A stretch of 64,000 nucleotides of DNA from Litorimonas taeanensis. Its GTDB lineage: Bacteria > Pseudomonadota > Alphaproteobacteria > Caulobacterales > Maricaulaceae. This document shows positions 29,318 to 64,000 of the stretch, piece by piece. The stretch covers positions 1,612,001 through 1,676,000 of the forward strand of contig NZ_RBII01000001.1 in assembly GCF_003634015.1 (NCBI RefSeq), given 5' to 3'. The notes under the pieces were generated by a model. That model was given only the letters and a program-made list of their open reading frames with translations, was not told the origin of the DNA and ran no database searches. Position numbers and translations under genes: made by a program. Within the stretch, counting starts at the first letter, position 1. The number at the start of each line of letters is the position of its first letter.

Positions 29318-29333
29318 TTATGTATGCACATAA
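29318..29333. promoter_or_regulatory. Candidate HutC operator palindrome
   Basis: TTATGTATGCACATAA is a perfect inverted repeat (TTATGT / ACATAA around ATGC) in the 106-base region between divergent hutI and hutC. HutC of other proteobacteria binds palindromes with a TGTAT/ATACA core, to which this is close. The assignment as the HutC site is inference from symmetry and position. Confidence 0.6.
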
Positions 29334-29369
29334 TAAAATGAGGACGCAAGTAAATTGGTATAAACGTAA

Positions 29370-30062: not shown

Positions 30063-30075
30063 GGGAGAGCGGCTC

Positions 30076-34776: not shown

Positions 34777-34793
34777 ACCTTTTGGAGAATTTA

Positions 34794-35588: not shown

Positions 35589-35600
35589 GGCGGCAAACAT

Positions 35601-38733: not shown

Positions 38734-38772
38734 ATTGTTACTTTAGAGTAGTTGCGCTTTCATGTCAGTATC

Positions 38773-38790
38773 TTTATGAAAGTTATTATA
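38773..38790. promoter_or_regulatory. Candidate regulatory motif copy 1
   Basis: TTTATGAAAGTTATTATA, read on the minus strand, contains TAACTTTCATAA, also found upstream of the lipoprotein gene at 42094. With CTTTCAT at 38757-38763 it forms a loose inverted repeat. It lies between divergent units. Function is inferred from recurrence only. Confidence 0.3.
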
Positions 38791-38814
38791 GAAAATAAAT
38801 TTGGGGAAGCCTTT

Positions 38815-40506: not shown

Positions 40507-40510
40507 AGAT

Positions 40511-41965
40511 CTATAGCTTAGACCTATCGACCCATGTTGAATGCGTGCCGCTACACATTTTGTGAGGTATTTTAATTCTGCACACGGGGCCTTCTGAAAA
40601 CTTCTTAGCATCAATAAGAATACATTCAGATGTTCCCTTATTTTCATCAATTATAAAACTGACCAAATAGCCATCATCTTCTGATTGCGCATTAAGTCTG
40701 GGTGCGAAAGGCGCTTCGGAGGCATATCGACCCTCTTCGAGATGTACTTCTTCGCTCTCTCCGGTGACGAGGTCATGCTTCACAAATCCATTGAATAGGA
40801 ACCATCCCGGCTTCGATTGGACACTATAAACATAACGATATTTTTGACCTGCATATTGCTGATTTATCATACCGAACTCTACTACCCTGTCGTCTAATCG
40901 TTCTTCGGTTGTCGTTCCGTCTTTTAAATTAAAGCGCCAACGGTGTAGCTTAGATTGCAAACTATGAAGGTCAACATAAGCCATGAGATGGCCGTGTTTT
41001 CCTGCTTCTTTGATCGGCTCTGGCGACGGATTCTCCTGAAAATACCCATCCAAAATAACTTCATCTCCCTCTTCATAAGCATTCAACCAATGAAGAACAT
41101 ATGTTGGGCTCGCCTCGAACCAGCGCACATCTTCTGACCCGCCATGACGAGGAATAAGACCAAAACGAGAGGGCAAACCCTCATGCGATCTCACGGCATG
41201 AATATTACGCTTCAGAAGCTCTTGATCCCAAAAAACAGGAAGGTCATTAAGTATAGACCAGTTTTCACTAAAGGCCATATCATGAGGTAGCCGAGGGCCT
41301 GGTAGATCGATCGGAACGTAATTTGTTAGCTTTCCCTCTTTATTCACAACGCCGTAATGCATGTAAGGCACTGATTTACTGTAGTTAAAAAACAACAGCT
41401 CATCCGTCGCTTCATCGACTTTGGGATGCGCCGAGATACCATCTAATGGCACCCATGGGGCTACGCCCTCAAATTCTAAAGTCTCTGGATCTAATATATA
41501 CCCCTCGCCGCATTGGTAAAATGTAGCGATGGCTTTCCCGCGATGCACAACCACATCAGTACTTGCTGTATCTTTCAACCCGCCATGCGCACCAAATCCG
41601 GGGCGTTTTGATGTGCCAGGGCCATCCATTAAACCGCCCCACTGCGCGCTCCCTAAGGTCTGCTCAAGCTCAAAACCCCGCGTGCGAACAAATCGATTTC
41701 GATAACTTGCAGTGCCTTTAGAGAAACTTATCTGATGGATCATACCATCGCCATCAAAAGGGTGATGACGGCCCAAGGGCTGATGAACTTGGTTTTCGGT
41801 ATTGCGCAGATAAATCCCATCAATGTCTTTAGGAATCTCGCCAGCGATCACTTCAAGGTCTGTTGCATTGACCTCTTCATGTTGCGGTGTCCATGCCCCG
41901 CTTAGATAAGGGTGGTTACTCGGCTGTAAATTCGATTTTATTTTTTTAAGTCGCTCAATTTCCAT
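40511..41965 (-). CDS. Carotenoid/stilbene cleavage oxygenase (RPE65 family)
   Basis: A non-haem iron dioxygenase cleaving a C=C bond of a carotenoid, apocarotenoid or stilbene into two carbonyl products. All four iron-binding His are visible, at about 180 (GISAHPKVD), 228 (RLPHDMAF), 292 (TYVLHWLNAYEEGDEV) and 475 (SGTHSTWV). 484 residues from the ATG at 41965, preceded by GGTGAG; GTG 41974 is possible. No signal peptide. Family membership is firm; whether the substrate is isoprenoid or lignostilbene-like cannot be told. Its products would be aldehydes, fitting the nearby SDRs and ligases. Confidence 0.95.
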   Translation of the reverse strand: MEIERLKKIKSNLQPSNHPYLSGAWTPQHEEVNATDLEVIAGEIPKDIDGIYLRNTENQVHQPLGRHHPFDGDGMIHQISFSKGTASYRNRFVRTRGFELEQTLGSAQWGGLMDGPGTSKRPGFGAHGGLKDTASTDVVVHRGKAIATFYQCGEGYILDPETLEFEGVAPWVPLDGISAHPKVDEATDELLFFNYSKSVPYMHYGVVNKEGKLTNYVPIDLPGPRLPHDMAFSENWSILNDLPVFWDQELLKRNIHAVRSHEGLPSRFGLIPRHGGSEDVRWFEASPTYVLHWLNAYEEGDEVILDGYFQENPSPEPIKEAGKHGHLMAYVDLHSLQSKLHRWRFNLKDGTTTEERLDDRVVEFGMINQQYAGQKYRYVYSVQSKPGWFLFNGFVKHDLVTGESEEVHLEEGRYASEAPFAPRLNAQSEDDGYLVSFIIDENKGTSECILIDAKKFSEGPVCRIKIPHKMCSGTHSTWVDRSKL

Positions 41966-42058
41966 CTTACTCACCAATTAGGTTTCTACAATTCCTCTCG
42001 GAAGGCATTTTCGGTCATTCACATATTTGTATTGACGTACTTACAAACTTCCCGCAGG

Positions 42059-42077
42059 TATAACTTTCATAATAATA
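42059..42077. promoter_or_regulatory. Candidate regulatory motif copy 2
   Basis: TATAACTTTCATAATAATA lies in the 128-base region between the divergent carotenoid oxygenase and lipoprotein genes. It shares TAACTTTCATAA with the reverse strand at 38773-38790, and ACTTTCATWA with 45013-45030. It could be a binding site for the local HxlR-like regulator; this is inference. Confidence 0.3.
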
Positions 42078-42093
42078 CTAACTGGAGGATTTC

Positions 42094-42615
42094 ATGGACT
42101 TTCGCAAGATATTTATTGCCGCAGCACTCAGCTGCACCGCCCTAACGGCCTGTAGTCAGGCCGATCAGGCCACGCATCAACCAAGTGTAACTGCAGAAAC
42201 ACATCAAAATATGGAGACCGACATGCAAGCCGATCCAAAGATAGCTGTTGTGGAAGAAATGATAACCGCATGGAACGAAAAAGAGTGGAACAAGATTGCA
42301 GACCTTTTCACAGAAGACGGTGTTCTGCACTCTATGATGATTGACCCTGTTGTCGGCCGCGAAACCATTCGAAAGCGTATTGTTGGCTTAGGGGAAGGCC
42401 TTTCTGAAATTACACTTAACATCATCAACATTGGACGTATCAATGATGTTGTTGTCATCGAACGTGTGGATGAATTCACCTATAAAGGCCATAAGGGCAA
42501 GGTTCCTGTCGTCGGCATTTTAGAAGTTGAAGGCGATAAAGTTAAAGTCTGGCGTGAGTATTATGACCGCGCAGAGTTGCTCGCTGAAATGGGACTAGAA
42601 CACGACTTTGATTAG
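42094..42615 (+). CDS. NTF2-like lipoprotein, limonene-epoxide-hydrolase type
   Basis: A 173-residue lipoprotein precursor (signal MDFRKIFIAAALSCTALTAC, Cys 20) with an NTF2 cone domain from about residue 45. It carries the epoxide-hydrolase-like ERVDEF and WREYYDR motifs. In limonene-1,2-epoxide hydrolase the corresponding segments supply an Arg-Asp pair and a second Asp; here the Arg and first Asp are kept, and the last position appears to be Glu. GGAGG lies just before the ATG. It is followed 14 bases later by the MFS gene. Periplasmic anchoring is unusual for this family. Confidence 0.8.
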   Translation: MDFRKIFIAAALSCTALTACSQADQATHQPSVTAETHQNMETDMQADPKIAVVEEMITAWNEKEWNKIADLFTEDGVLHSMMIDPVVGRETIRKRIVGLGEGLSEITLNIINIGRINDVVVIERVDEFTYKGHKGKVPVVGILEVEGDKVKVWREYYDRAELLAEMGLEHDFD

Positions 42616-42629
42616 GACAGGAACACCTG

Positions 42630-43979
42630 ATGACTAACCCTGCTACAACACATGAAACATTAATAGCTGAAACCGATACAAGCCAGCCCTTCCCCAAGGC
42701 CATCGTGTCATGGGGCATCGTGGCGGCCTTCTTTATCGCTTATATCTTCTCTTTTATCGACCGCATGATTATCGGTCTTTTAGTAGAGTCTATCAAAGAA
42801 GACCTCGTCTTGACGGATACACAGATAGGCCTTTTACAAGGCCTCGCTTTTGCTATTTTCTACACTGTAGCGGGGATTCCTATTGGACGATTAATTGATC
42901 GCGCACCCCGTATGAAAATTGTGGCTTTAGGAATAGCTGTCTGGAGTATCATGACGGCAATTTGTGCCGGTGTGAGTAATTTTTGGCAATTCTTTGTGGC
43001 CCGAATGGGCGTTGGGGTTGGAGAAGCTGTTTTGTCTCCTGCCGCGTATTCAGTGATTTCCGATAGTTTTCCAAAAAACAAAATTGGTTTGCCTATGGGA
43101 GTTTATGGTCTTGGTTCGGCTATCGGTGCGGGACTGGCCTTTATGCTAGGCGCTGTGGTCGTTGCGGCCGTTTCGAATGCAGGTCAAACCTCTCTACCCA
43201 TATTAGGCGAAGTAAAAGCCTGGCAGATTGCTTTTCTTGTGGCAGGCATACCTGGATTGCTAGTCGCCTTAATGTTTCTCTTTCTCCCTGAGCCTAAGCG
43301 TCGTTTCACGGCGGCCGAAGCCGAGACAAAGGAGCCTGTACCCTTATCTAAGGTCGTTGATCACATGCAGGAAAATCGTGTATTTTTCTGGTCACTCTTT
43401 GTGGGTGTTGGTGCTGTGAATCTTTCTGTTCTTGGGTCTATCTCATGGTTACCAGCCATGCTGATGCGGACATTTGAAATGGAAATGGTGCATGCTGGCT
43501 GGTTTGCGGGTGCCATGTTAATTATTGGCGGCCTCATCGGATTAATTGGCGGCGGCGCTTTAATGGACCGCATTGGCGGCGGCACGCCCGCTGTTAGACT
43601 CAAATTTTGTGGCTGGTCAGCCTTAATTGGATCCATCGGCGCTCTCATCTTTCCAATTACAGGCAGTATTCCCCTTTTAGCGGTCTCGTTTGTTCTGTTT
43701 TTCTCAGCCGCGGCTGTGGCCGTTGGCGCAGCGCCTTCGACTATTCAGCAATTAGCGCCTAACCGTATGCGAGCCACAATCTCAGCCGCATATGTCTTTG
43801 CCGTCAATGCAATTGGCCTCGGCTTAGGCCCGACATTAACCGCATGGATTGGCGATACATTCTTTCCTTTTGAGTCTGGCATTCGCTATGCCATCGTCAT
43901 TGTGGCCGTAAGCGGGTATCTTATTGGCGCCCTATTATTTTATGTCGCGGCCAAGAGCTTAAAAACTAAAAAACTATAG
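42630..43979 (+). CDS. MFS transporter
   Basis: 449 residues with about 12 hydrophobic helices in two halves. Motif A-like GRLIDRAPRMKIVALG follows helix 2 (about 88-103), and a second GGALMDRIGGG copy sits at about 308. Overall it resembles the spinster-like/organic-anion subgroup often found in sphingomonad-type catabolic islands. It shares a transcript with the upstream lipoprotein. It may import the substrate across the inner membrane after the TonB receptor, or export an intermediate; the direction cannot be told. Confidence 0.9.
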   Translation: MTNPATTHETLIAETDTSQPFPKAIVSWGIVAAFFIAYIFSFIDRMIIGLLVESIKEDLVLTDTQIGLLQGLAFAIFYTVAGIPIGRLIDRAPRMKIVALGIAVWSIMTAICAGVSNFWQFFVARMGVGVGEAVLSPAAYSVISDSFPKNKIGLPMGVYGLGSAIGAGLAFMLGAVVVAAVSNAGQTSLPILGEVKAWQIAFLVAGIPGLLVALMFLFLPEPKRRFTAAEAETKEPVPLSKVVDHMQENRVFFWSLFVGVGAVNLSVLGSISWLPAMLMRTFEMEMVHAGWFAGAMLIIGGLIGLIGGGALMDRIGGGTPAVRLKFCGWSALIGSIGALIFPITGSIPLLAVSFVLFFSAAAVAVGAAPSTIQQLAPNRMRATISAAYVFAVNAIGLGLGPTLTAWIGDTFFPFESGIRYAIVIVAVSGYLIGALLFYVAAKSLKTKKL

Positions 43980-44045
43980 ATAAAGTTGCAATTATACACC
44001 CCCTAGAATGGACAGATATACGGTAATTGTTCATAGTATAAATCT

Positions 44046-45002
44046 ATGGAAAAAGATCTTATTCGTTCGTGCTCAATTTGGCGTGCGCTAGAAGTTATTG
44101 GCGATTACCCTATCCTGCTTATTCTCGAAGTGAGTTGGCTTGGCGGAAAGCGCTTTGACGGCTTTCGCCGGCGCACAGGGCTTTTAAAGGCCTCTCTATC
44201 CAGTCGCCTAAAACGACTGGTCGAGGCGGACATTATGGTGAAGCGCAAATATTGCGATAGCCCGCCGCGTTATGAGTACATTATGACGGATAAGGGTCAG
44301 GACCTTTATTGGGTCGCTTTGATGTTATTGCGGTGGGAACGACGCTGGCAAGAACCCGGGAAAATCACGGTAGAGCTTACTCATAAACCTTGTGGCAAAA
44401 TTTTTGAGCCCGTTCCTGCCTGTGGAAGCTGTAATGACGAAATAAACCCAACTCAGGTCGAATGGAAAGAAGGGCCAGGTCTTGGATGGATGGTTCCGCT
44501 TTATAGTCGTCGCCGTAGGAGCCGAGACGCAGAACAACGCTCCATTTCACTAATGGACCAAGCCGCTCAAATCATGGGAGATAGATGGTCTAGTCTTATT
44601 TTACGCTCTATTTATACAGGCATTAATCGATTTGATGACATTCGTGTCGATACGGCCATCGCAACCAACATTTTATCAGAAAGATTAAATTGGTTGGAAG
44701 AAATTGGCATGATCCGACAAGAGCAATATAATACGAACCCACCCCGTTACGAATATAGATTACGATCAAAAGGCGTAGATTATTACCATGCTTTGCTGAT
44801 GCTTATGAAATGGGGGGATAAATATTATGTCTCACCCGAGGGACCGCCGCTTCTGCTCACGCATCTTCCTTGTGAGTCAGATCTTAACCCACAAGTGATT
44901 TGCTCTGAATGCCGAAAGCCTATCCATATCAGCGATGTGACCTATGATATATCAGGAAATTTCGATGTTCCATCTACCGTGACCGCCGCTGCTTCAGAGT
45001 AA
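44046..45002 (+). CDS. Tandem HxlR-type regulator with repeated Zn-ribbon-like motifs
   Basis: 318 residues made of two homologous halves. Each has an HxlR winged helix (half 1: 1-105, with LSSRLKRLVEADIMVKRKY and SPPRYEYIMTDKG; half 2: 160-262, with LSERLNWLEEIGMIRQEQY and NPPRYEYRLRSKG). Each is followed by the same spaced motif H-x2-C-x9-C-x2-C (H113, C116, C126, C129; H273, C276, C286, C289). The halves are 160 residues apart. HxlR proteins normally are ~110-residue dimers; this is a built-in dimer with likely metal sites. It probably controls the surrounding island. Confidence 0.85.
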   Translation: MEKDLIRSCSIWRALEVIGDYPILLILEVSWLGGKRFDGFRRRTGLLKASLSSRLKRLVEADIMVKRKYCDSPPRYEYIMTDKGQDLYWVALMLLRWERRWQEPGKITVELTHKPCGKIFEPVPACGSCNDEINPTQVEWKEGPGLGWMVPLYSRRRRSRDAEQRSISLMDQAAQIMGDRWSSLILRSIYTGINRFDDIRVDTAIATNILSERLNWLEEIGMIRQEQYNTNPPRYEYRLRSKGVDYYHALLMLMKWGDKYYVSPEGPPLLLTHLPCESDLNPQVICSECRKPIHISDVTYDISGNFDVPSTVTAAASE

Positions 45003-45012
45003 CTCTTTTTAA

Positions 45013-45030
45013 TATAAACTTTCATTAACA
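45013..45030. promoter_or_regulatory. Candidate regulatory motif copy 3
   Basis: TATAAACTTTCATTAACA lies 37 bases before the SDR start. It shares ACTTTCATWA with the copies at 38773 and 42059. Just downstream is TTATACT, a possible -10 element. Weak on its own. Confidence 0.25.
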
Positions 45031-45066
45031 TACCCTCTCTGTTATACTACAGAAAACGAGGGAATA

Positions 45067-45954
45067 ATGTTACAAAGCGAAAGAGTTGCACTTATTACTG
45101 GCGCGGGAAAAGGCCTAGGTGCGGCCTTCGCAAAGTCTCTTGCATTAGACGGGTGCAAGGTCATGGTGAATAATAGAAGTCACCCCAACACACCTAGCTC
45201 CGCCCAAAAAATAGCAACCGAATTACAAGAACAAAATTACGTCGCTGATTTTGAAGACAGTCCAGTCCATGAAGAAGGCGCGGCAACGACAATAATTTCC
45301 AATACATTAAAGCGCTTTGGCCGACTGGATATTTTGATTCTGAATGCCGGCATTTCTGGCCCCGCCATGAAAGTTAATGATCAGGGCGACCCTAAGCTGC
45401 GCCAAATCATGGAAATTAATTTCTTTGCCAATACCGCATTAATAGACGCCGCTTTGCCTTATCTACGCGAATCGTCAGCAGGACGTATTGTGTTTATTGC
45501 TTCATCTGCAGGACTCTATGGTGTCCGCGGCCGAGCACCTTACGCCGCTTCTAAGGCCGCCCTTATAGCTTACGCGAAAACACTCGCAGATGAATTAAGC
45601 CGAACTAATATACGTGTAAATATTATAGCGCCATATGCTGCGACGAATATGACATCTGCTGAAAATGCGGCCGTAGACGAAGATTTACACCCTAGCCATG
45701 CCACAGCCGCAGCAACATGGTTTGCTCGGCCAGACTGTCACGCCAATGGGCAAGTCTGGATGGCTGGGGCTAAATATTTCGCTCGAAGCGCCACGATAGA
45801 GGGTATTGGCGGAGGCTGCGTTAACCCAACACCAGACTGGTTTGGCGAGCATATCAACGCATTATCTTCTGTAGAGAATGGCACTGAATTCAGCGGAGCA
45901 GAAGCTGCCTTTGCGCATTTCTATAAAAAAGCAAAACAAAACAACCATAACTAA
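45067..45954 (+). CDS. Short-chain dehydrogenase/reductase (HSD17B4-like)
   Basis: A 295-residue classical SDR. The cofactor motif TGAGKGLG is at about residues 11-18, NAG at 92-94, the catalytic Ser in FIASSAG and YAASK at about 160-164. The extra ~45 C-terminal residues with WFGEHI and the overall pattern resemble the dehydrogenase domain of multifunctional beta-oxidation protein (17-beta-HSD type 4). This suggests a 3-hydroxyacyl-CoA or cyclic alcohol substrate. It begins the SDR-NTF2-SDR-NTF2 unit and is followed 14 bases later by an NTF2-like gene. Confidence 0.9.
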   Translation: MLQSERVALITGAGKGLGAAFAKSLALDGCKVMVNNRSHPNTPSSAQKIATELQEQNYVADFEDSPVHEEGAATTIISNTLKRFGRLDILILNAGISGPAMKVNDQGDPKLRQIMEINFFANTALIDAALPYLRESSAGRIVFIASSAGLYGVRGRAPYAASKAALIAYAKTLADELSRTNIRVNIIAPYAATNMTSAENAAVDEDLHPSHATAAATWFARPDCHANGQVWMAGAKYFARSATIEGIGGGCVNPTPDWFGEHINALSSVENGTEFSGAEAAFAHFYKKAKQNNHN

Positions 45955-45968
45955 AAAGAGAGGGAAAG

Positions 45969-46502
45969 ATGGCACGTCCTAAATCAATAGAGGAATTATT
46001 TGACCGACAGGAGATATATGACCTTTTAGTCAATTATGCGCGAGGCGCTGATCGCGGCGATGCAGATTTAATTGCAGCGGCTTATCATGATGACGCGATA
46101 GAAGATCATGGCGGCACATTTTTAGGGCCCGCTACAGAATATGTAGAGATGCTACGAAAGATTCTCCCCAAAGCGCCGCGCATGTCGCACATCGTTACAA
46201 ATATTAATATCGAATTAGACGGAGAGAGCGCCTATACAGAATGCTATTTCCTTACATTCTCTAGACGCGACACGGTTGAGAACCCCTATGACAGCCTAAC
46301 AATGGCGCGGGTTATCGACAAAATGGAACGCCGTAATGGCGAATGGAAAATCGCACATCGCCGCCTTGTCTGGGATTGGAACCATGAGATGCCATTACGC
46401 GAAACATGGGGCCGCGGAGAAATAGCGCCTGATCCAGATAAACTCGTGCGGGGCGCCAAAAAGCCGGATGATATTCTTTATGGCGACTGGCTTAGAAACT
46501 AA
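45969..46502 (+). CDS. SnoaL/NTF2-like protein (cytosolic)
   Basis: A 177-residue SnoaL_4-type protein without a signal peptide. The N-terminal helix carries DRQEIYDLLVNYARGADRGD, followed by YHDDAIEDHGG, then MSHIVTNINIELDGESAYTE and WKIAHRRLVWDWNHE. These Tyr/His/Asp positions line the pocket in dehydratases and isomerases of this fold. AGAGAGGGAAAG gives a ribosome site. It is paralogous to the protein at 47274. A dehydratase or isomerase acting beside the SDRs is plausible; no catalytic assignment can be made. Confidence 0.82.
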   Translation: MARPKSIEELFDRQEIYDLLVNYARGADRGDADLIAAAYHDDAIEDHGGTFLGPATEYVEMLRKILPKAPRMSHIVTNINIELDGESAYTECYFLTFSRRDTVENPYDSLTMARVIDKMERRNGEWKIAHRRLVWDWNHEMPLRETWGRGEIAPDPDKLVRGAKKPDDILYGDWLRN

Positions 46503-46524
46503 AACTTAACCTGAGGATACACAC

Positions 46525-47274
46525 ATGAAAGTAGAAGGATGTACCGCCATCGTAACTGGCGGAAATAGAGGCATAGGCCTTGGATTCGTAATGGAGTTAA
46601 TCGAGGCAGGCGCAGAACGCGTATATATTGCCTCTCGTAAACTCTCTGATGCCCAAGCCATCGCAGAGTCAAATCCAGATATACTAAAGCCTATTCAATT
46701 AGACGTCACAAAACTTGATGAGGTTGAGGCCGCAGCCCAAGCCTGTCCAGATGTCGATGTCGTCATTAATAATGCTGGCGCCTTTAATAGGGAAACTTTG
46801 TTAGGCGCACCGGATATGTCTGCAATGCGGCAGGAAATTGAAACGAATTACATTGGCGTCGTCGCCATGTGCAGAGCCTTCGCCCCCATTCTTAAAAACA
46901 ATGGCGGCGGAGCCATTGTGAATGTTCTATCAGCAGGCGGTATTGTTTCCGTTCCCGGGATGGGCGGCTATAGCCCCTCAAAATTCGCGGCACGTTCAGC
47001 CAGTGACTGTATGCGGGCAGAACTCGAGCCCCAGAACACACAAGTTTCTGCTTTGATTGTCGGCTCCGTCGATACGCGCATGGCCAAACATGTTACTTGG
47101 CAAGAGAAGTCTACACCTAGAGACATAGGCAAGGCCGGAATCGTCGCCATTGAAAACAATATCCATGAACATGACACGGATGCACATTCCGTCTCTGTTC
47201 GCGCGTTCCTAGCCCGTGATCCACATACTCTGAAACGGTCTATGGCGAAGGCCCTGCATAAAGGAAGAACATAA
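46525..47274 (+). CDS. Short-chain dehydrogenase/reductase
   Basis: 249 residues. The N-terminal TGGNRGIGLGF (about 12-22) is the SDR cofactor motif, and NNAG is at about 87. Catalytic residues are Ser in NVLSAGG and Tyr/Lys in YSPSKFA near 152. The acidic or basic residue deciding NAD versus NADP follows beta-2 as ASRK, which favours NADP. Its stop overlaps the start of the next NTF2-like gene (TAATG). It is only distantly similar to the SDR at 45067. Confidence 0.9.
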   Translation: MKVEGCTAIVTGGNRGIGLGFVMELIEAGAERVYIASRKLSDAQAIAESNPDILKPIQLDVTKLDEVEAAAQACPDVDVVINNAGAFNRETLLGAPDMSAMRQEIETNYIGVVAMCRAFAPILKNNGGGAIVNVLSAGGIVSVPGMGGYSPSKFAARSASDCMRAELEPQNTQVSALIVGSVDTRMAKHVTWQEKSTPRDIGKAGIVAIENNIHEHDTDAHSVSVRAFLARDPHTLKRSMAKALHKGRT

Positions 47275-47795
47275 TGTATAAAAACACAATTGAAACCGTC
47301 ATCGCTAAACAAGACATTAGCGATGTTATCATGCGTTATGCGCGCGCCATTGACCGCGCAGACGGGCCATTACTCCATAGTTGCTATTGGGAAGACGCCA
47401 TAGAAGAACATGCTAATACCTATAATGGCCCTGCGCATGACTATATCGATGGGGCTATGGCCCGCCTGATTAAAGGCGATGTCATGATGCATCATGTCGG
47501 CAACATGCATACAGAGATCGAAGGCGATACGGCGTGGGTTGAAACCTATCTTGTGACTTTCGCGAGATTTCAAAAAGACGGCGAACCCTGGGATACATTA
47601 ACGGGCGGCCGTATTTTTGATAAATTTGAGTGCAGAGAGGGTGAATGGAAAATCGCTCACCGTAAAATGGCGTTTGATTGGAACAGAGACGAACCCGCTT
47701 CCGAAGGTTGGTGCCTAGGACTATTCAAACCAGATCACCCTGAAACCATTATGGGGTGCAAAGGAAAAGACGATTTAACCTATTCACGGTTTTAA
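47274..47795 (+). CDS. SnoaL/NTF2-like protein (cytosolic)
   Basis: A 173-residue SnoaL_4-type protein, clearly a paralogue of the one at 45969. Shared positions include AKQDISDVIMRYARAIDRAD, YWEDAIEEH, MMHHVGNMHTEIEGDTAWVE and WKIAHRKMAFDWN. It has no signal peptide. It is the last gene before a strong terminator. The alternating SDR/NTF2 order suggests two sequential or parallel oxidation-dehydration steps. Confidence 0.82.
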   Translation: MYKNTIETVIAKQDISDVIMRYARAIDRADGPLLHSCYWEDAIEEHANTYNGPAHDYIDGAMARLIKGDVMMHHVGNMHTEIEGDTAWVETYLVTFARFQKDGEPWDTLTGGRIFDKFECREGEWKIAHRKMAFDWNRDEPASEGWCLGLFKPDHPETIMGCKGKDDLTYSRF

Positions 47796-47814
47796 TCCCC
47801 TAATAAATTTTAGA

Positions 47815-47852
47815 TAAAAAAAAGACCCAGGTTTTACGACCTGGGTCTTTTA
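47815..47852. terminator. Bidirectional intrinsic terminator
   Basis: A 12-bp stem (47821-47832 with 47839-47850) has a six-base loop, an A-rich left flank and a T-rich right end. It lies between the convergent NTF2-like gene and the TonB receptor gene and can end both transcripts. Confidence 0.92.
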
Positions 47853-47872
47853 GTTTATTTAGCAGCTTTGTT

Positions 47873-50215
47873 TTAGAATTTAACGGCGACCGAAGCCCCA
47901 TAAGTTCTAGGGGCTGCCAAACGGGAGATTTCGTCACCAAAGAAGGCGATGACATTTGTACGGTAAAGCTTATCTGTAAGGTTACGCCCCCAAAGCGATA
48001 CAGTAAGGTCACCTTCATTAGGGGTGATAGAGACGCGGCCATTTAACGTGCCATAGGCATCTTCATAATTTACATTTTCTGGTGCCCAGAATAATTTTCC
48101 TTGGTGGGAGTAGCTAACATTTGCCTTAAACCCATTTCTCCATTCGCCTAAATCAGTTTCATAATTCGCAGAGACGTTGAACTGATATTCAGGTGTGCGC
48201 TGCAAAAAATTACCAGATGAATCACGGCCTAGTGAATCTACAAAGTCGATATATTCTGTGTCTAAATATGTTAAACCGCCCGATAATGTCAGGCCCTCGG
48301 CCACGACAAATTCACCCTCAAGCTCTATCCCTTTAATATCGGCATCAGCCGCATTATCAGTGATATTACACAGGCAATCTGCGTTTGTTTGCGTGACCTG
48401 CAGATCTTTATACTTCATGAAAAATGCAGCGACGTTCAAACGGGCTCTATTATTGAAGAAATCAAACTTACCACCGATTTCAATATTATCGACAGTCTCT
48501 GGGTCGTAACTTGTCTGCGCAGCCGTGGCATTGGCTGGGTCATCTTCAAAACCACCACCTTTATACCCGATGGAATAAGTTGCATAAAGCAACATGTCAT
48601 CGTTCGGTTCAAACTCGGCCGTAAACTGAGGTGTAAACTGAGTCCATTTATTGCTGTAATCTGTTGTGTATGAGTCTCCCTCTAAGAAAACACCCGATAA
48701 AGGCGTTAAAGCAACTTGGTCATCTGGGAAAAACTGATCACCACCTTCAACAGCTGTGCCCGTAACGGAGCCACCTTTTTTATCTTCTGTGTAACGCAAG
48801 CCACCGACAATACGGAACTTGTCATTAAAACGGTAACCTAACTGAGCAAAAGCCGCATAACTTTCATTTTTCGATTCATTATCCCACGTTGATTCACCAC
48901 TTAGCGTTGGAATTGGAATAGGAGTTTGCGCCCAAAATCTATCAAACTTTTTAACTTTGTCATTCTGTAAATAGGCACCAACAATCCAATCAAAACCTTG
49001 ATCAACAGGTGCCGATACTAGGCGTAACTCTTGAGAGAACTGCTTTATATCTTCAGTTTCATTTACACCCGAAGTAAAGGCTGGAGGAGACAAAACGACA
49101 ACATCATAAATGTTATCGGGGCCAATTCCAGTTTGGTCATATAAATTGTGTGCATCGCCTTTTCGATAACCTGTAATTGAAGTGAGCGTTGCAAAATCAA
49201 ACTCATTCTCCATTTTCAAGGTAATCCCATAGGCCTCACGGTTAAGTTGCTGCGGGGTTTCTTGCGCATCCCCTTTATATCTAGGCCATTCAGGAAGACT
49301 TTCTCGAATATCTAAAGCCTCCCCACGAACGACACCGACTTGTTCACGCGCCAAACTCCAGCCGCCTTGCCCTGCAAACGGATCATCAACCGCAACCGAG
49401 TGGAATCCATTGGATGTATCTTTGGTGTAATCCATGGATAATTTAGCAGAGAATTGTGAATTTTCAGGCATATATAAAAGCTGCCCTCTAAACTGCGAAG
49501 AATCCACGTTATCTAAATCGACATTATGCATGATATCTTGGTTAAACCCGTCCCGATTGCGAACTTGAAACGAGAACCGGCCCGCAAGATCGTCTGTAAT
49601 CGCACCGGTAATATGACCATTCGCGAGGATTTCATTGTAGTTTCCGTAGGATACAGACAGGCGTCCATTAGGGTCAAATTCAGGTTCAGCGGAGTAAATG
49701 CTAATAGCACCACCCACGACATTTCGGCCTAAAAGCACGCCTTGCGGGCCGCGAACGACCTCTACACGGCCAATATCGTATAAATCAAAATTAAATAAGC
49801 CAGAACGGCCAACATATACATCGTCTGAGAAGATGCCGATTGATTGGTCAGCTGACGGTGAGTCCAAACGAGTGTTCGTAATGCCTCGGATATTAAATTC
49901 CTGATCCAGCGGCGATAAAGCGGTAAAAGAAAGCGATGTGGCGCTACCCGCTAAATCCTCAAAACTCAAAATACGTTCTTCTTCTAGATTCGCTCCAGAG
50001 AAAGCTGAAATCGCGGCCGATGTATCTTGGACTGTCGTAGAGCGACGCTGGGCCGTCACAATAATATTGTCCAACTCATATTTGCCGCTTTCGCTTTGCA
50101 TCTCTTCGCCCGGCACGGATTGCCCCGCCTGAGAGTGAGCTGTTTGCGCGCTCAGCATCGCCCCAGACATCGCTGCGATTAATACGAAATGGCTCGTGCA
50201 GTTTTTGAATTTCAT
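47873..50215 (-). CDS. TonB-dependent outer-membrane receptor
   Basis: About 780 residues. The start at 50215 follows GGGGA and gives a signal peptide (MKFKNC to about residue 28, TAHSQA). A TonB-box-like segment (LDNIIVTAQRR) precedes the plug domain (about 60-170, with GPQGVLLGRNVVGGAISIYS). The rest is a 22-strand beta-barrel ending in Phe (GASVAVKF). Receptors of this kind move large or hydrophobic substrates across the outer membrane. Position at the end of the catabolic island suggests it imports that pathway's substrate rather than a siderophore. Confidence 0.95.
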   Translation of the reverse strand: MKFKNCTSHFVLIAAMSGAMLSAQTAHSQAGQSVPGEEMQSESGKYELDNIIVTAQRRSTTVQDTSAAISAFSGANLEEERILSFEDLAGSATSLSFTALSPLDQEFNIRGITNTRLDSPSADQSIGIFSDDVYVGRSGLFNFDLYDIGRVEVVRGPQGVLLGRNVVGGAISIYSAEPEFDPNGRLSVSYGNYNEILANGHITGAITDDLAGRFSFQVRNRDGFNQDIMHNVDLDNVDSSQFRGQLLYMPENSQFSAKLSMDYTKDTSNGFHSVAVDDPFAGQGGWSLAREQVGVVRGEALDIRESLPEWPRYKGDAQETPQQLNREAYGITLKMENEFDFATLTSITGYRKGDAHNLYDQTGIGPDNIYDVVVLSPPAFTSGVNETEDIKQFSQELRLVSAPVDQGFDWIVGAYLQNDKVKKFDRFWAQTPIPIPTLSGESTWDNESKNESYAAFAQLGYRFNDKFRIVGGLRYTEDKKGGSVTGTAVEGGDQFFPDDQVALTPLSGVFLEGDSYTTDYSNKWTQFTPQFTAEFEPNDDMLLYATYSIGYKGGGFEDDPANATAAQTSYDPETVDNIEIGGKFDFFNNRARLNVAAFFMKYKDLQVTQTNADCLCNITDNAADADIKGIELEGEFVVAEGLTLSGGLTYLDTEYIDFVDSLGRDSSGNFLQRTPEYQFNVSANYETDLGEWRNGFKANVSYSHQGKLFWAPENVNYEDAYGTLNGRVSITPNEGDLTVSLWGRNLTDKLYRTNVIAFFGDEISRLAAPRTYGASVAVKF

Positions 50216-50678
50216 CGAGTAGTCCCCTTTATGTCCCCGCTTTGCGGTGTTTATAATAAAAGGCTTAAAACATAATAGTGAGTTCGTCAATGCAAGTTAC
50301 TATATCATTTTCTCTTAACTGAGTTTCTTCTCACTCATCGTTTAATTCATACACTCTTTATATCCTAAGGTGTGGCTATTCTGAGGATAAATCCTATCCG
50401 CCTCACCCAAACGCAACATCTGATATTAATAGTGTGAACCCGAATGGCTTTAACTTCCTCGTCAAAATACGGCTGAATAGAAATTAAGAATGATAACTAG
50501 CGAATGACAATATGGATGCAAAGAGGCTCACATGGCCCTGTGTTTCAAGCTCTCACTACGGAACCAAACACCAGCGCATCAGTCGTAAACCCTCATGCAG
50601 AATAGACCCTTGCACCGTACAAAAGCCCGTCAAAGCTGTCGCCGCTGAAGGCATACGCTCTGCCCATATCAAGAAATT
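50216..50678. other. Intergenic region before the TonB receptor and after tRNA-Leu
   Basis: 463 bases. It holds the receptor leader with its GGGGA ribosome site near 50224. Only short frames (under 30 codons) without ribosome sites are open. I see no clear promoter, repeat or RNA gene. Confidence 0.4.
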
Positions 50679-58100: not shown

Positions 58101-59552
58101 TCAATCAGTACGCGGTAAATATCGCGTCGGAAGCTTACCAATTCTACCATTACGGTCGACGGATAATTCCCATCCTTCATCAACATCTATAGTCGCAAGC
58201 AAGCTCTCAACTTGGCGAGTTGAGTCAATGTCAGTGCCATTAAGGGAAATAAGAAAATCCCCCGGCCTCAGGCGGTTATAGTTCGCGGCGCTTCTGCCTT
58301 CGACTTTTAAAACCATAACGCCCTTCAAATAGGGGTCGAACCCTAATTCTTCGCCCAAGGCTGGGCTCATATTAACGACGGTTGCTCCGTCAAAAGGATG
58401 ATAACCTTCTAGCTTTCGTTCATCACGCGCTGGCGATTCCTGTGGGATATCTGTTTTAACACCAATCGTGCGCTCTTTGCCTTCGCGGAAATACACAATA
58501 TCAGCTCTATCGCCCTTACGAAGAGTGGCGAGTTTAAAGCGAAGCCCACTATCATCATTAACCGCAGTCCCATCGACAGATAAAATCACATCTCCTTTTT
58601 CAAGGCCCGCCCTATCCGCTGGTCCGCCCGGTAAGACTTCGTTGATGACCGTCCCCTTAGAACGATCCAATCCGAGCGCGGCCGCCATCGTCGCATCAAC
58701 CGCATTAGTCCGCGCGCCAATCCAAGGCCGCACAATACGTCCCTCTGTCAGAGCGCTATCGACGGCGCGGCTTACGAGTTCAGAGGGGATAGCAAAGCCA
58801 ATCCCGTTTGACCCGCCAGAACGCGAGAAAATGGCCGTGTTCACCCCCACCAACTCGCCGGATAAATCAACAAGCGCACCGCCTGAGTTTCCTGGGTTCA
58901 CAGCCGCATCAGTCTGAATAAAGGATGATACATCCGTCACATTCGTACGCCCCATTGCTGAAACGATACCGCTTGTAACGGTCTGACCAACACCAAACGG
59001 ATTCCCGATGGCTAACACAATATCACCGATTTCAAGGTCTTCACCTGCGCTTTGAATCGCGAGGGCAGGTAAACGCTCACCTTTCGTATCAATACGCAAA
59101 ACGGCCACATCGATTTCTTCGTCCTGCGCTATAATTTCCGCGGGGAATTCACGGCGATCATTTAAAACAACGCGCAACTCATCCGCGCCTTTCACCACAT
59201 GCGCATTCGTAACGATAATTCCATTAGAGCGTACAATCACGCCAGAACCTAAAGAGTTTTCTACTCGCTCTTGCGGCGCGCGGCGCATGCCAAACATTTG
59301 TTCAAAGAAATCAGACCGTCCGCGAGACCTTACGGTGCGCGACGTAAAGACATTAACTACAGCAGGCGCCGTTTGCTTAACAACAGGGGCATAAGAGAGC
59401 TGCACCTGCGCCTGAGAGGTTGGGACAACGCGGTCTGGTAAATCAACAGGAAACTGCGCTTGTGCCGTCGTCGTGGAAAGCAAAGTCGCAGAGAGCGCTG
59501 TCCCGCTGCTTATTAATGCCGTAGCTAGAAAAGAGAGAATAGATTTTTTCAT
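58101..59552 (-). CDS. DegP/DegQ-type periplasmic serine protease
   Basis: A 483-residue HtrA protease/chaperone. Signal peptide 1-32 (TTAQA). Catalytic triad His 118 (VTNAHVV), Asp 148 (EIDVAVLRI) and Ser 223 (NPGNSGGAL). Two PDZ domains follow (about 275-365 and 385-470). It degrades or refolds misfolded envelope proteins. It is upstream of rarA on the same strand with 15 bases between. Assignment to DegP versus DegQ cannot be made. Confidence 0.95.
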   Translation of the reverse strand: MKKSILSFLATALISSGTALSATLLSTTTAQAQFPVDLPDRVVPTSQAQVQLSYAPVVKQTAPAVVNVFTSRTVRSRGRSDFFEQMFGMRRAPQERVENSLGSGVIVRSNGIIVTNAHVVKGADELRVVLNDRREFPAEIIAQDEEIDVAVLRIDTKGERLPALAIQSAGEDLEIGDIVLAIGNPFGVGQTVTSGIVSAMGRTNVTDVSSFIQTDAAVNPGNSGGALVDLSGELVGVNTAIFSRSGGSNGIGFAIPSELVSRAVDSALTEGRIVRPWIGARTNAVDATMAAALGLDRSKGTVINEVLPGGPADRAGLEKGDVILSVDGTAVNDDSGLRFKLATLRKGDRADIVYFREGKERTIGVKTDIPQESPARDERKLEGYHPFDGATVVNMSPALGEELGFDPYLKGVMVLKVEGRSAANYNRLRPGDFLISLNGTDIDSTRQVESLLATIDVDEGWELSVDRNGRIGKLPTRYLPRTD

Positions 59553-59877
59553 AATGGTAAAATAGGGCCCGTCATACGAATTACCAAGCCCTAGTCTGAA
59601 TTATGAGGTAATTTTTAGGTTTACAGCTGTTGATGTATCATCGGTAAAGACCTGAAACTTTCAGCCCTTTTGCATATATATGAAAGAAACCACCACGCCT
59701 TTGTCTGAATCAGCCTCATCCCATCGTCTGGGTAAAACCGCTTGAAGATGCCTATCAATTAATTATAAGCTCAGACTCATTATTGAAGACAAAGAAAGAA
59801 GACTGTTCTCACATTAGCATTGATTGTTTTGCACAGCCTCACTTTTAAACGACACCTCTTGGAAATTAAGAAACCGT
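59553..59877. other. Divergent promoter region degP-like / KAS III
   Basis: 325 bases. AT-rich and without open frames of note. GCATATATATG at about 59671 is a small AT palindrome, perhaps part of a promoter. No clear -35/-10 pair, terminator or RNA gene was recognised. Confidence 0.4.
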
Positions 59878-60840
59878 ATGGCCAGAATCTCTCACATCGA
59901 AACTTTCTTTCCTGAGACCTGTATCCAGAATAAAGACCTAGAAGGCATAGTTGAGGGATTTGATGCTGAAAAAATAAGCAAAAAAATTGGCATTGAAAAA
60001 AGATATATTGTATCAAAAGGACAAACAGCTTTAGACTTAGCAGAAGGCGCCTGTAAAAAGCTTTTAGAAAAAGTCGATTCACAATCAATTGATTGTTTGC
60101 TCCTATGCACACAAAGCCCCGAATATTTCCTCCCAACGACGGCGACTATTTTACAACATAGACTAGGGTTATCAACGAAATGCCCAGCCCTTGACTTTAA
60201 CCTCGGTTGCTCTGGCTACATTTATGGGCTTTCTTTGGCCAAAGGCATGATTGCATCTGGCCAAGCAAAAAAAGTACTTCTGGTTACGTCAGAAACTTAT
60301 TCTGTACATTTGGCACAAGACGATGTTTCCAACAGAAGCATCTTTGGCGATGGCGCAACAGCCACTCTTGTCGAAGACACCCCCACGGACAATTTGGGTC
60401 AGTTCTCTATGGGCACAGATGGCTCGGGCGCTGAAAACTTAATTGTAAGAAACGGCGCAACAAAAAACCCCATTCGGGATGGGTCTGCAGATGATTATTT
60501 ATATATGAACGGCCCCGAAATATTTAACTTCACAATTCAAGCCGTGCCTGACTTGGTTGACGAAGTTTTGGAAAAAAACTCTCTGACGACTGAAACCGTG
60601 GATTATACAATATTCCATCAAGCTAACGAATATATGCTGAAATATCTGCGCAAAAAGTGCCGTATTCCTACAGATAAATTTCACATCGGCATGAAAGACT
60701 ATGGCAATACCGTCTCGTCGACAATCCCCATTGCATTAAAGCAAGCGCTTGACAGTAAAAAGCTGCAAGACGGCAATCAAGTCTTGCTTATTGGCTTTGG
60801 GGTAGGGTATTCGTACGGCGGAACAGTAATCACTGTATAA
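59878..60840 (+). CDS. Beta-ketoacyl-ACP synthase III (KAS III), copy 1
   Basis: 320 residues from the ATG at 59878; the frame runs open upstream without a start. The KAS III triad is complete at near-FabH numbering: Cys 111 (DFNLGCSGYIYGL), His 247 (FHQANEYML) and Asn 277 (YGNTVSSTIP). It would condense an acyl-CoA starter with malonyl-ACP. The dedicated ACP gene next door, and a second KAS III after it, suggest a special acyl product rather than housekeeping fatty acid initiation. Confidence 0.93.
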   Translation: MARISHIETFFPETCIQNKDLEGIVEGFDAEKISKKIGIEKRYIVSKGQTALDLAEGACKKLLEKVDSQSIDCLLLCTQSPEYFLPTTATILQHRLGLSTKCPALDFNLGCSGYIYGLSLAKGMIASGQAKKVLLVTSETYSVHLAQDDVSNRSIFGDGATATLVEDTPTDNLGQFSMGTDGSGAENLIVRNGATKNPIRDGSADDYLYMNGPEIFNFTIQAVPDLVDEVLEKNSLTTETVDYTIFHQANEYMLKYLRKKCRIPTDKFHIGMKDYGNTVSSTIPIALKQALDSKKLQDGNQVLLIGFGVGYSYGGTVITV

Positions 60841-60867
60841 ACTACATAATGACTTATAGGGCGCATA

Positions 60868-61098
60868 ATGGAACTAGATAAATTTTTAGAAGAGCTAACA
60901 GAAGTATTAGAGCTCGACGACACTTTGACGGTAGAATCTCCATTGGACGAAGAAAATGGTTATGATTCTCTTGGCGTATTAAGTGTGATTGCCCTTGTTG
61001 ATGAAAACTTCGGAATCTCTCTTTCTGGCGAAGTCTTAAGCGAGTTGAAATCAGTTAAGGAACTTATTTCCTTAATTGGGGAAGACAAAATAACTTAA
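60868..61098 (+). CDS. Acyl carrier protein (specialised)
   Basis: A 76-residue acidic four-helix ACP. The phosphopantetheine Ser is residue 34 in GYDSLGVLSVI (canonical DSL motif). AGGGCG lies before the ATG. It lies between two KAS III genes, so it probably carries their product. It is not the housekeeping AcpP: the flanking fabD/fabG/fabF genes are missing, and the helix-2 sequence (LGVLSVIALVDENFGI) differs from AcpP. Confidence 0.93.
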   Translation: MELDKFLEELTEVLELDDTLTVESPLDEENGYDSLGVLSVIALVDENFGISLSGEVLSELKSVKELISLIGEDKIT

Positions 61099-61116
61099 GC
61101 ATTGCGATAATCATAC

Positions 61117-62175
61117 ATGGCCTTTTTGAAATACAGTAAAGCCTCCATTACTGGAATGGTGAGCTGTTACCCACCTAACATTATTGATAATTTGACAGTC
61201 TCACCCCTCCTTACGGAAAAAGAGGCTGCGAAGGTCGTGAAAGCTACTGGCATCAAGGAACGCCGATTTGTCTCAGAGGGCGTTTGTGCGTCCGATCTTT
61301 GCGCGCAAGCGGCTGAACACCTTCTGGATGACATGGGAATTGATAGAGACAGTATTGATGTCTTAATTTTCCTCTCCCAAACTCCAGATTATTTGGGCGT
61401 TCCTGCAACATCTTGCGCGCTACAAGCACGGCTTGGACTTTCCACTGAAACCGCCGCATTTGACATGGTGCTTGGCTGTTCAGGTTTCATATATGCCTTA
61501 TCGACTGCCTACGCCTATGTAGAAGCAGGCGCTAAAAGAGTTTTATTGCTCGTAGGGGAAACTATGAGTGACTTTACCTCACTTGAGGACAGGACCACGG
61601 CCTTGTTGTTTGGCGATGGTGGGGCTGCTATCATGGTTGAAGGCAAAGACACAGCATCGACAAGTTACTTCTCTTTACGGACCGACGGCAAAGGGACCGA
61701 CGCTATTAAAATCCCTAGTGGTGGATATAGATCCCCCTCAAATGCAGAGAACGTACAATTACAAACCTTTGAAGACGGAAGCCGAAGAACTGGCCTTCAT
61801 GTTACGATGGATGGGATGAAAGTGTTTGACTTCACAATGAAAGAAGTCGTTCAAAACATACAATCGGTATTATCCTTTGCCGAAGTAGATATCGACGATG
61901 TAGATACGTTTTTCATGCATCAAGCGAATAAGTTCATGCTGAATATGTTTGCCAAAAAATTGAAAATTGCCAAAGAGAAAATGCCTATCTCCATTCATAA
62001 ATTTGGTAATACAAGCACAGTCTCTATTCCTCTAACAATTACAGATCATATACAAGAAGGCGGACACAAACCGCTAAATAGCATTCTCTGCGGATACGGC
62101 TCCGGTCTATCTTGGGGAACCGCCTATCTTGATATGAGCTCTTGTACTTTATACAAACAAATCGAGTATAAGTAA
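61117..62175 (+). CDS. Beta-ketoacyl-ACP synthase III (KAS III), copy 2
   Basis: 352 residues with the complete triad Cys 121 (DMVLGCSGFIYAL), His 268 (MHQANKFML) and Asn 298 (FGNTSTVSIP). It differs clearly from copy 1, and has a 15-20 residue insertion near 200-225 and a C-terminal tail. Both copies look catalytically able, so they may use different starters or act in successive rounds, or form a heterodimer. The next gene starts six bases later. Confidence 0.92.
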   Translation: MAFLKYSKASITGMVSCYPPNIIDNLTVSPLLTEKEAAKVVKATGIKERRFVSEGVCASDLCAQAAEHLLDDMGIDRDSIDVLIFLSQTPDYLGVPATSCALQARLGLSTETAAFDMVLGCSGFIYALSTAYAYVEAGAKRVLLLVGETMSDFTSLEDRTTALLFGDGGAAIMVEGKDTASTSYFSLRTDGKGTDAIKIPSGGYRSPSNAENVQLQTFEDGSRRTGLHVTMDGMKVFDFTMKEVVQNIQSVLSFAEVDIDDVDTFFMHQANKFMLNMFAKKLKIAKEKMPISIHKFGNTSTVSIPLTITDHIQEGGHKPLNSILCGYGSGLSWGTAYLDMSSCTLYKQIEYK

Positions 62176-62180
62176 TATCA

Positions 62181-62948
62181 ATGACCATTATGCAAGATTT
62201 TAACTTAACCGACACGAATGTTCTGATTACTGGAGCTTCTTCTGGACTTGGTCGAGCAATGTCTATCGCTTGTAGTGAAGCCGGCGCGAATGTTGCTTTG
62301 GTAGGTAGAAATAAGGAAGCTCTTGAGCATACTCGCTCATTATTAACCCCTAACAACCATCATTGCTTCAGCTATGATGTAACAGAGAGCGCTTTATATA
62401 CGGAATTATTTAATTCCATAGAGAGCCAAATGGGAAAACTTTCTGGCTTCGTTCACTCCGCTGGCATTGAGAAGTCTCTGCCTTTAAAGGCAGGTTCTGC
62501 TAAACATTACGAGCAAATATTTGATGTGAACACGACAGCAGCCCTTGAACTCAGTCGCTTCGTCTTAAAGAAAAAATATCGCGCTGAATCAGTCAGTATT
62601 ATTTTTATGTCATCAATAATGGCCGTAGTCGGCGCGCCAACTCAAATGGCCTATGCCGCTTCGAAAGGCGCGCTGGTGTCCGCCGCAAGATGTGCCGCTC
62701 TCGAATATGCGAATAAAGGGGCACGCTTTAACTGCATTTCGCCTGGCTTTGTTGCGGGCACACCTATGTCTGAGGAGTTATTAGAAAAACTCCCTCCTGC
62801 AGCTAAAGAAGATCTAATTTCAAGCTACCCTCTCGGCCTAGGCGAAACGACCGATATTAGTAATGCTGCTATTTTCCTATTATCACGTGCATCCCGATGG
62901 ATAACAGGAACGAACATTATGGTTGATGGTGGCTATAGTGCTCGCTGA
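62181..62948 (+). CDS. SDR oxidoreductase, FabG-like
   Basis: 255 residues. NADP motif TGASSGLGRAM (about 17-27), HSAG near 92, Ser in FMSSIMA and YAASK near 160. The C-terminus has WITGTNIMVDGGYSAR, the usual FabG-like end. In this cluster it would reduce the 3-ketoacyl-ACP made by KAS III to 3-hydroxyacyl-ACP. ATGs at 62181 and 62190 are both possible starts. Confidence 0.9.
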   Translation: MTIMQDFNLTDTNVLITGASSGLGRAMSIACSEAGANVALVGRNKEALEHTRSLLTPNNHHCFSYDVTESALYTELFNSIESQMGKLSGFVHSAGIEKSLPLKAGSAKHYEQIFDVNTTAALELSRFVLKKKYRAESVSIIFMSSIMAVVGAPTQMAYAASKGALVSAARCAALEYANKGARFNCISPGFVAGTPMSEELLEKLPPAAKEDLISSYPLGLGETTDISNAAIFLLSRASRWITGTNIMVDGGYSAR

Positions 62949-62997
62949 TAACAGAAAATAGCTTGCTTGCGACAGGATATCAAAAAGGTATTCCCAA

Positions 62998-63627
62998 ATG
63001 AAAATTGCTATTTTTGGATCGTCAGGATTTGCAAGAGAAGTTGCAGATCTTTGCCATGACATTGGCTATACAGACATGGTTCTGGTCGACGGTTCTAATG
63101 ATGCCGACACAGTTGCAGGCCTTAAGGTCTTGGATGATAGCCACATAAGCACACTAGCAAGCTCAGGGTATGATTTCGTCATTGCCATTGGCAGTCCTCA
63201 AATCAGACGAAAAATTGCAAGCCAATACCCAGACTTGAATTTTCCAAACCTTATCCATCCAACAGTTTCGTTCGGTCGCGGACAAAGAGAACGTCTTGAG
63301 GCGTCTCGCGGTAATATATTCTGTGCCGGATGCCGCCTATCTAATACAATTGATATTGGCGACTTCTGTACCTTCAATATGAATGTACTCATTGGGCATG
63401 ATGTCGAAATTCAAAACTATGTATCAGTCATGTCAACCACTGTGATTTCTGGGAATGTCACAATTGGCGATAATGTTTATATTGGAAGCGGTGCCCTCAT
63501 CACTAATGGCAAGCTACATAAAAAACTTACCATTGAGAAAGATGCCTTTATTGGTATTGGTAGCGTTGTTCTTAGACGCATTAGAGAAGGCCATAAGGTC
63601 TTTGGGAACCCCGCAAAAAAAATATAA
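62998..63627 (+). CDS. PglD/NeuD-family left-handed beta-helix acyltransferase
   Basis: 209 residues: an N-terminal Rossmann-like sugar-nucleotide-binding part (MKIAIFGSSGFAREVADL, 1-80), then hexapeptide repeats (about 110-205; NVTIGDNVYIGSGALI, KDAFIGIGSVVLRRI) ending GNPAKKI. His 134 (IGHDVEI) fits the catalytic His of the family, which transfers acetyl or acyl groups to amino or hydroxy sugars. Last of the cluster. The acyl donor may be the local ACP; that is inference. Confidence 0.88.
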   Translation: MKIAIFGSSGFAREVADLCHDIGYTDMVLVDGSNDADTVAGLKVLDDSHISTLASSGYDFVIAIGSPQIRRKIASQYPDLNFPNLIHPTVSFGRGQRERLEASRGNIFCAGCRLSNTIDIGDFCTFNMNVLIGHDVEIQNYVSVMSTTVISGNVTIGDNVYIGSGALITNGKLHKKLTIEKDAFIGIGSVVLRRIREGHKVFGNPAKKI

Positions 63628-63654
63628 TCGTGTTGCTAGGTTCCCCCGTCGGGT

Positions 63655-64000
63655 CTATTTATCAGCCAGCTTCTTTTCCGCTTCTTTAAGTGACTTTCTA
63701 GCCTTTTTCAGCTCGCGTTTGGCTTGGTCCAAATCACGTTTTGCGAGATCGCTGTCTTTCAATTCTTCAAGGAGTTCTTCTACAGATTCCAACATAGATT
63801 CTGCCGCGCTTAAATGCGCCTCACGCTCTATTCTATCAAGATTTAAGCGCTCTAAGGCTTCGTGGTCAAAGTCATCCTCGAACTCAAAATCGTGTTCAAA
63901 TGTGTGAAAAGCACTCACATCATGTGAATTTTCACCGGTTTTATACCGTAGGATGATTGGAGGTTCGCTCTCCCCTGCTTCATCTGCACCAAGCTCTAAG
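63655..64000 (-). CDS. Coiled-coil protein, C-terminal part (runs off right edge)
   Basis: The frame is open from 64000 to the stop at 63655. A GTG at 63918 could start it, but upstream codons (LELGADEAGESEPPIILRYK) read like continuing protein. The visible end is acidic, then His/Glu/Asp-rich (HTFEHDFEFEDDFDHEALER), then a Lys/Glu/Leu heptad coiled coil (about the last 60 residues). The rest of the gene is outside the window. I do not recognise the family; similar tails occur on alphaproteobacterial M56-type membrane peptidases. Confidence 0.6.
   Translation of the reverse strand, partial: LELGADEAGESEPPIILRYKTGENSHDVSAFHTFEHDFEFEDDFDHEALERLNLDRIEREAHLSAAESMLESVEELLEELKDSDLAKRDLDQAKRELKKARKSLKEAEKKLADK

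Follow-up and report, generated by a model that had tools for sequence, protein, structure and literature searches.

Gene content of the locus

The stretch of DNA analysed here (the window) comprises 64,000 nucleotides of Litorimonas taeanensis contig NZ_RBII01000001.1. At 59878-63627 it carries a block of five open reading frames (ORFs), all on the plus strand and separated by gaps of 27, 18, 5 and 49 bp (Table 1). The block encodes two 3-ketoacyl-acyl carrier protein (ACP) synthases III (KAS III), here termed ketosynthases KS1 and KS2, a dedicated ACP, a FabG-like short-chain dehydrogenase/reductase (SDR) and a PglD/NeuD-type sugar N-acyltransferase, P0005. Judging from gene content and from comparison with known systems, the five genes probably act together to transfer a hydroxyacyl group from the ACP to an amino sugar destined for a surface glycan.

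Family assignments were made with Pfam and NCBIfam profiles, which were mutually consistent. They agree with an earlier reading of the window made without database searches (the sequence-only reading), which had described the same five adjacent genes, the complete triads of both KAS III and the DSL motif of the ACP. Both ketosynthases qualify as KAS III, combining scores above the NF006829 cut-off of 249 bits (275.9 and 257.4 bits) with a complete Cys-His-Asn triad. The phosphopantetheine Ser of the ACP is invariant in eight homologues. P0005 matches PglD_N (PF17836) and Hexapep, scores 161.0 bits against the curated TIGR03570 cut-off of 160.8 (160.4 in a genome-wide scan) and has a catalytic-type His conserved without exception in seven homologues, thereby showing the features of the PglD/NeuD family to which it had been assigned. 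KS1 is predicted to initiate acyl-chain synthesis on the ACP, KS2 to run a second condensation and the SDR to act as the 3-ketoacyl-ACP reductase.

Table 1. Position and features of the five genes, the islet that contains them and its borders (window coordinates)
Feature	Position	Strand	Details
KS1, KAS III (FabH-like)	59878..60840	+	C111-H247-N277; best PDB match 3gwa
Dedicated ACP	60868..61098	+	Phosphopantetheine Ser34 in YDSLG; PF00550, 33.6 bits
KS2, second, divergent KAS III	61117..62175	+	C121-H268-N298; best PDB match 4efi
FabG-like SDR	62181..62948	+	Motifs TGASSGLG and YxxxK; PF13561, PF00106
P0005, PglD/NeuD/VioB-type left-handed beta-helix (LbH) sugar N-acyltransferase	62998..63627	+	LbH His134; best PDB match VioB 7txp
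Islet (probably acquired), ~4.1 kb	59553..63654	.	Between htrA (-) and coiled-coil gene of M56/BlaI module (-)
htrA/degP protease gene	58101..59552	-	Left border, outside the pathway
Coiled-coil gene, 3' end	63655..63999	-	Right border, outside the pathway; 468 aa (L002:4656-6062)

The two ketosynthases

In a phylogenetic tree, KS1 lies in a supported clade (99/92) adjoining housekeeping FabH, and KS2 lies outside it. Since they belong to different clades, KS1 and KS2 appear to be old paralogues that travel together, with no recent duplication. Trp32, Arg36 and Phe87 of Escherichia coli FabH bind coenzyme A (CoA) and limit the primer pocket. The position of Trp32 is Lys in both proteins, that of Arg36 is Lys in KS1 and Ala in KS2, and that of Phe87 is Leu in KS1 and Val in KS2. 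The substitutions in KS2 are weakly consistent with a larger, bulkier acyl primer that is not carried on CoA. KS1-clade proteins are rare, occurring in 3 of 398 genomes sampled from the phylum, and two KAS III around one ACP are thus as unusual as had been noted, although the arrangement has precedents in Burkholderia glumae, in genome G839 and in Flavobacterium psychrophilum.

The five-gene set has no dehydratase gene for the chain, and two rounds of condensation and reduction would therefore yield a 3,5-dihydroxyhexanoyl group. We give two rounds, with this product, an even chance. The 3-hydroxyacyl-ACP proposed before is right in the kind of chemistry, but the acyl group may exceed a simple 3-hydroxyacyl.

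Comparison with known systems

The closest described system is the O-antigen locus of F. psychrophilum, in which wfpC and wfpE are annotated as 3-ketoacyl-ACP synthases, wfpD as an ACP, wfpF as a reductase and wfpG as a PglD homologue; these genes were predicted by the authors to make the 3,5-dihydroxyhexanoyl group and to load it onto UDP-Qui2NAc4N, and nuclear magnetic resonance places that group on the 4-amine of Qui2NAc4N in the finished O-antigen (PMC6519341). The same acyl group has been reported in Vibrio cholerae O3 (PMC3210612). Genes for all five predicted activities occur together in our islet, in the same order as far as the lettering of the wfp genes implies. Both genomes also have a PglC-type phosphoglycosyl transferase (PGT) and pglE/pglF functions, and both polysaccharide loci contain an fnlA/wecB-type pair. 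However, wfpC-G lie inside the O-antigen locus with their sugar genes, whereas here the five genes form a lone islet and the pglE/pglF and PglC-type homologues are on another contig; likewise, the acyl product is established in F. psychrophilum and is a prediction here.

An identical gene order, KS1-ACP-KS2-SDR-PglD, is found in the flagellin glycosylation island of B. glumae BGR1 plasmid pBGF3 (identity 44.5% for KS1 by tblastn, about 32% for PglD). That island reads fliC, fliD, fliT, a tetratricopeptide repeat (TPR) glycosyltransferase, vioA, KS1, ACP, KS2, SDR, PglD and a Rieske gene, whereas our islet has no sugar or flagellar neighbour. The B. glumae KS2 (L089:20449-21550) carries no annotation, and its frame is interrupted in the database record; here the frame is intact.

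The viosamine island of Pseudomonas syringae (vioA-vioM-vioT-vioS-vioB-vioR-acp) uses one KAS III, an ACP, an SDR and VioB to place 3-hydroxybutanoyl viosamine on flagellin, and acylated viosamine is lost in vioB and vioR mutants (PMC3927599). It shares with our islet a KAS III, an ACP, a ketoreductase and a PglD-like acyltransferase for hydroxyacylating a 4-amino sugar, but differs in its single KAS III, dTDP-linked sugar, flagellin target and adjacent methyltransferase and sugar transferase. The L. taeanensis genome has no VioA-type dTDP-sugar aminotransferase, and the islet is not linked to flagellin genes or to a flagellin glycosyltransferase. Campylobacter PglD, the bacillosamine N-acetyltransferase, resembles P0005 in its PglD_N and hexapeptide fold, catalytic-type His and probable acceptor, UDP-Qui2NAc4N, but takes its acyl group from acetyl-CoA and has neither an ACP nor a KS as partner.

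Similar sets recur elsewhere. Genome G839 has a KS1-ACP-KS2 run beside vioA, fliC, a TPR glycosyltransferase and a PglD-like gene in a flagellin island (L126); a polysaccharide-locus contig of a Chlorobiaceae bacterium reads fnlA, wecB, PGT, ACP, KS2, SDR, PglD, KS1; and a Synergistaceae contig reads SDR-SDR-KS2-ACP-KS1. Azospirillum, Halodesulfovibrio, Parabacteroides and several further genomes have partial sets within loci for pseudaminic acid or other glycans. These comparisons, above all those with pBGF3, the Chlorobiaceae locus and wfpC-G, lend strong support to the proposal that an amino sugar is N-acylated from an ACP. Because fish and plant pathogens are already known to carry blocks composed of the same genes, the islet appears to be a further example of a known system and not a new kind.

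Flagellin and nonulosonate islands with KS/ACP/PglD sets repeatedly also contain a gene of the Rieske/SRPBCC oxygenase type (L089, L121, L122, L123, L126 and L081), whose product perhaps hydroxylates the acyl group or the sugar. Such a gene is missing from the cassette in the window.

A candidate acceptor pathway on another contig

A polysaccharide locus on another contig (C2:285-305 kb) holds, in one operon, genes for a LegC-family aminotransferase, a UDP-GlcNAc 4,6-dehydratase (PF02719) and a PglC-type PGT (PF02397); fnlA- and wecB-like genes lie in the same locus. The aminotransferase scores 507.8 bits against a cut-off of 420 and has PglE among its structure matches, and the dehydratase best matches PDB entry 3pvz (586 bits), with PglF next. 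No recognisable acyltransferase was found in this locus. Apart from P0005, the genome encodes no full-length TIGR03570 protein; two of the other hexapeptide matches read as CysE and gamma-carbonic anhydrase, and the rest are partial, presumably lpxA, lpxD, glmU and dapD.

The genome has just two PF01041 sugar aminotransferases, LegC and a WbpE-type enzyme (L039:12303-13424). A third PF01041 match, at C1:811246, was set aside, the DNA reading by eye as glyA-like (serine hydroxymethyltransferase). As no NeuB is encoded in the genome, a nonulosonic acid (legionaminic or pseudaminic) acceptor was ruled out, and so was dTDP-viosamine in a genome with no VioA-type aminotransferase. The WbpE-type enzyme, and hence a 3-amino sugar, is a weaker alternative as the source of the acceptor. 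Since NeuB is missing, the second aminotransferase is WbpE-type and the LegC-dehydratase-PGT trio comes without a recognisable acyltransferase, elimination leaves UDP-Qui2NAc4N as the best candidate, and we lean towards it as the acceptor.

The dehydratase occurs in 3 of 149 relatives, a distribution as patchy as that of the cassette. Across L038:15936-17123 and L129:9607-10794, it shares 88% identity with the dehydratase of another genus (G018), yet it is missing from the searched congeners, as if the polysaccharide locus had been exchanged between genera.

Probable insertion of the islet

In eight congeners, just 15-197 bp separate htrA from the coiled-coil or M56 gene, and the interval is empty. 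The G+C content of the cassette genes is 0.37-0.45, that of the ACP gene being lowest, compared with 0.48 ± 0.02 for the other genes of the window. No close homologue of KS2 was found in 199 relatives; the best matches there (E ≤ 1e-40), at 31-39% identity, resemble housekeeping FabH. Given the empty site in the congeners, the absence of close KS2 homologues from relatives and the low G+C content, the five genes were probably inserted as one block, apparently from another bacterium. Scans of the islet for promoters, terminators and Rfam families gave nothing above chance, and remains of mobile elements were sought no further than these scans.

To the right of the islet, the coiled-coil gene is followed by M56 and BlaI genes and then by ribosomal genes up to the contig end. 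The M56/BlaR1-like gene and its coiled-coil neighbour (L002:4656-7501) are separate ORFs in this genome and in some congeners, and form a single ORF of 559-616 aa in others (among loci L110, L113, L116 and L117); the difference amounts to fusion or splitting of a BlaR1-type sensor.

Proposed mechanism and alternatives

We propose the following scheme. KS1 would use a starter, probably acetyl-CoA, for condensation with ACP-bound malonyl, and the SDR would reduce the 3-keto group. KS2 would most likely extend the resulting 3-hydroxybutanoyl chain by a second condensation, and a second reduction by the SDR would give 3,5-dihydroxyhexanoyl-ACP. P0005 may then move the acyl group to the 4-amine of UDP-Qui2NAc4N, supplied by the LegC aminotransferase and the UDP-GlcNAc 4,6-dehydratase encoded on the other contig, and the PGT encoded beside them would start a surface polysaccharide with the acylated product. 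Most likely, then, the islet acylates UDP-Qui2NAc4N in trans. We infer each reaction, the acyl length, the acceptor and the action in trans from the genes.

Several observations weigh against this scheme. No sugar genes adjoin the cassette, which has htrA on its left and the M56/BlaI module and ribosomal operon on its right. Sugar-nucleotide genes had been expected on that side, and a neighbourhood with no glycan pathway had been named as evidence against a role in glycosylation; this is what the immediate neighbours show, while the candidate sugar pathway sits on another contig. The expectation that the LegC trio always pairs with PglD failed: the relatives G018 and G067 carry the trio yet no TIGR03570 protein, and in G067 a GNAT gene lies beside the PGT gene, after the trio (L130:7534-11259). 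The trio thus does not need PglD, and the GNAT suggests that another enzyme serves the same amino group there. The likeness to WfpC-G rests on a published annotation in which gene functions, too, were only predicted, and we know of no products of two-KS islands other than that of F. psychrophilum. Finally, P. syringae makes Qui4N(3-hydroxybutanoyl) with a single KAS III, ACP, SDR and VioB (PMC3927599).

This last point also bears on acyl length. A single condensation, with KS2 redundant or setting the choice of starter, would lead to transfer of 3-hydroxybutanoyl, as on the flagellin viosamine of P. syringae, and that group on Qui2NAc4N is found in several marine bacterial glycans. Both KS are catalytically complete, however, their separate clades co-occur in distant taxa, and the sole two-KS locus with a solved structure bears a C6 group. 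We regard a single condensation as a real but lesser possibility. That KS2 might instead be an acyltransferase, or pair with KS1 without catalysing condensation, along CerJ or PqsB-PqsC lines, is much harder to sustain. KAS III relatives with such roles exist, and PqsC is among the distant PDB matches of KS1. In CerJ-type KAS III, Asp replaces the catalytic Asn, and in the PqsBC heteromer one partner has no active-site Cys; by contrast, Asn277 of KS1 and Asn298 of KS2 are present, both proteins have the Cys, and the set already contains a PglD acyltransferase. We think such a role very unlikely.

The sequence-only reading had left the target as a surface glycan or flagellin. The cassette, whole or in part, does occur in flagellin islands (B. 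glumae, G839 and probably G891 and G750), and the host has a flagellin gene in the window (120-1394). This gene is 58 kb from the cassette, though, and the genome lacks NeuB and, with LegC and the WbpE-type enzyme as its aminotransferases, any VioA-type enzyme; a search for a Burkholderia-type TPR glycosyltransferase gave nothing but weak TPR matches, the Maf and FlmG families not having been searched. Because these three components are missing, a polysaccharide fits better than flagellin as the target, and acylation of flagellin sugars instead is unlikely. Least probable of all, by a small step, is that the set has no link to glycans, with KS, ACP and SDR making a lipid or small metabolite and the PglD homologue just acetylating with acetyl-CoA. 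The immediate neighbours are indeed non-glycan genes, Campylobacter PglD is an acetyltransferase and relatives of KS1 also occur in a polyketide locus, but in several phyla the complete set turns up in loci for glycans with amino sugars, and no further biosynthetic gene accompanies it here.

Other features of the window

Three further features were noted. A putative histidine-utilisation (hut) cluster with a GntR-type regulator, as read from sequence, lies at 24824-31011. A catabolic-looking cluster at 31218-50290, likewise recognised by its sequence, encodes thiolases, acyl-CoA ligases, carotenoid-oxygenase-like and SnoaL-like proteins and a TonB receptor. At 44046-45002, ahead of SDR and SnoaL-like genes, is encoded a 318-aa protein in which two tandem HxlR-type regulator domains can be made out by eye.

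Implications

Serotype and recognition by the immune system can be determined by the N-acyl groups that O-antigens and flagellins carry. Points of interest in this islet are its detached position and a testable link between ketosynthase number and acyl length: the two KS clades predict that one KS gives a C4 group and two KS a C6 group. More tentatively, and with the balance of our judgement somewhat against it, the five genes may represent a self-contained two-KS cassette for 3,5-dihydroxyhexanoyl synthesis without dehydration, in which each KS clade serves one round, and which moves between bacterial phyla independently of the sugar locus and alters an existing surface polysaccharide in trans from elsewhere in the genome. 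If such a cassette jumps among flagellin islands, O-antigen loci and neutral chromosomal sites, this would explain the spread of N-acyl groups.

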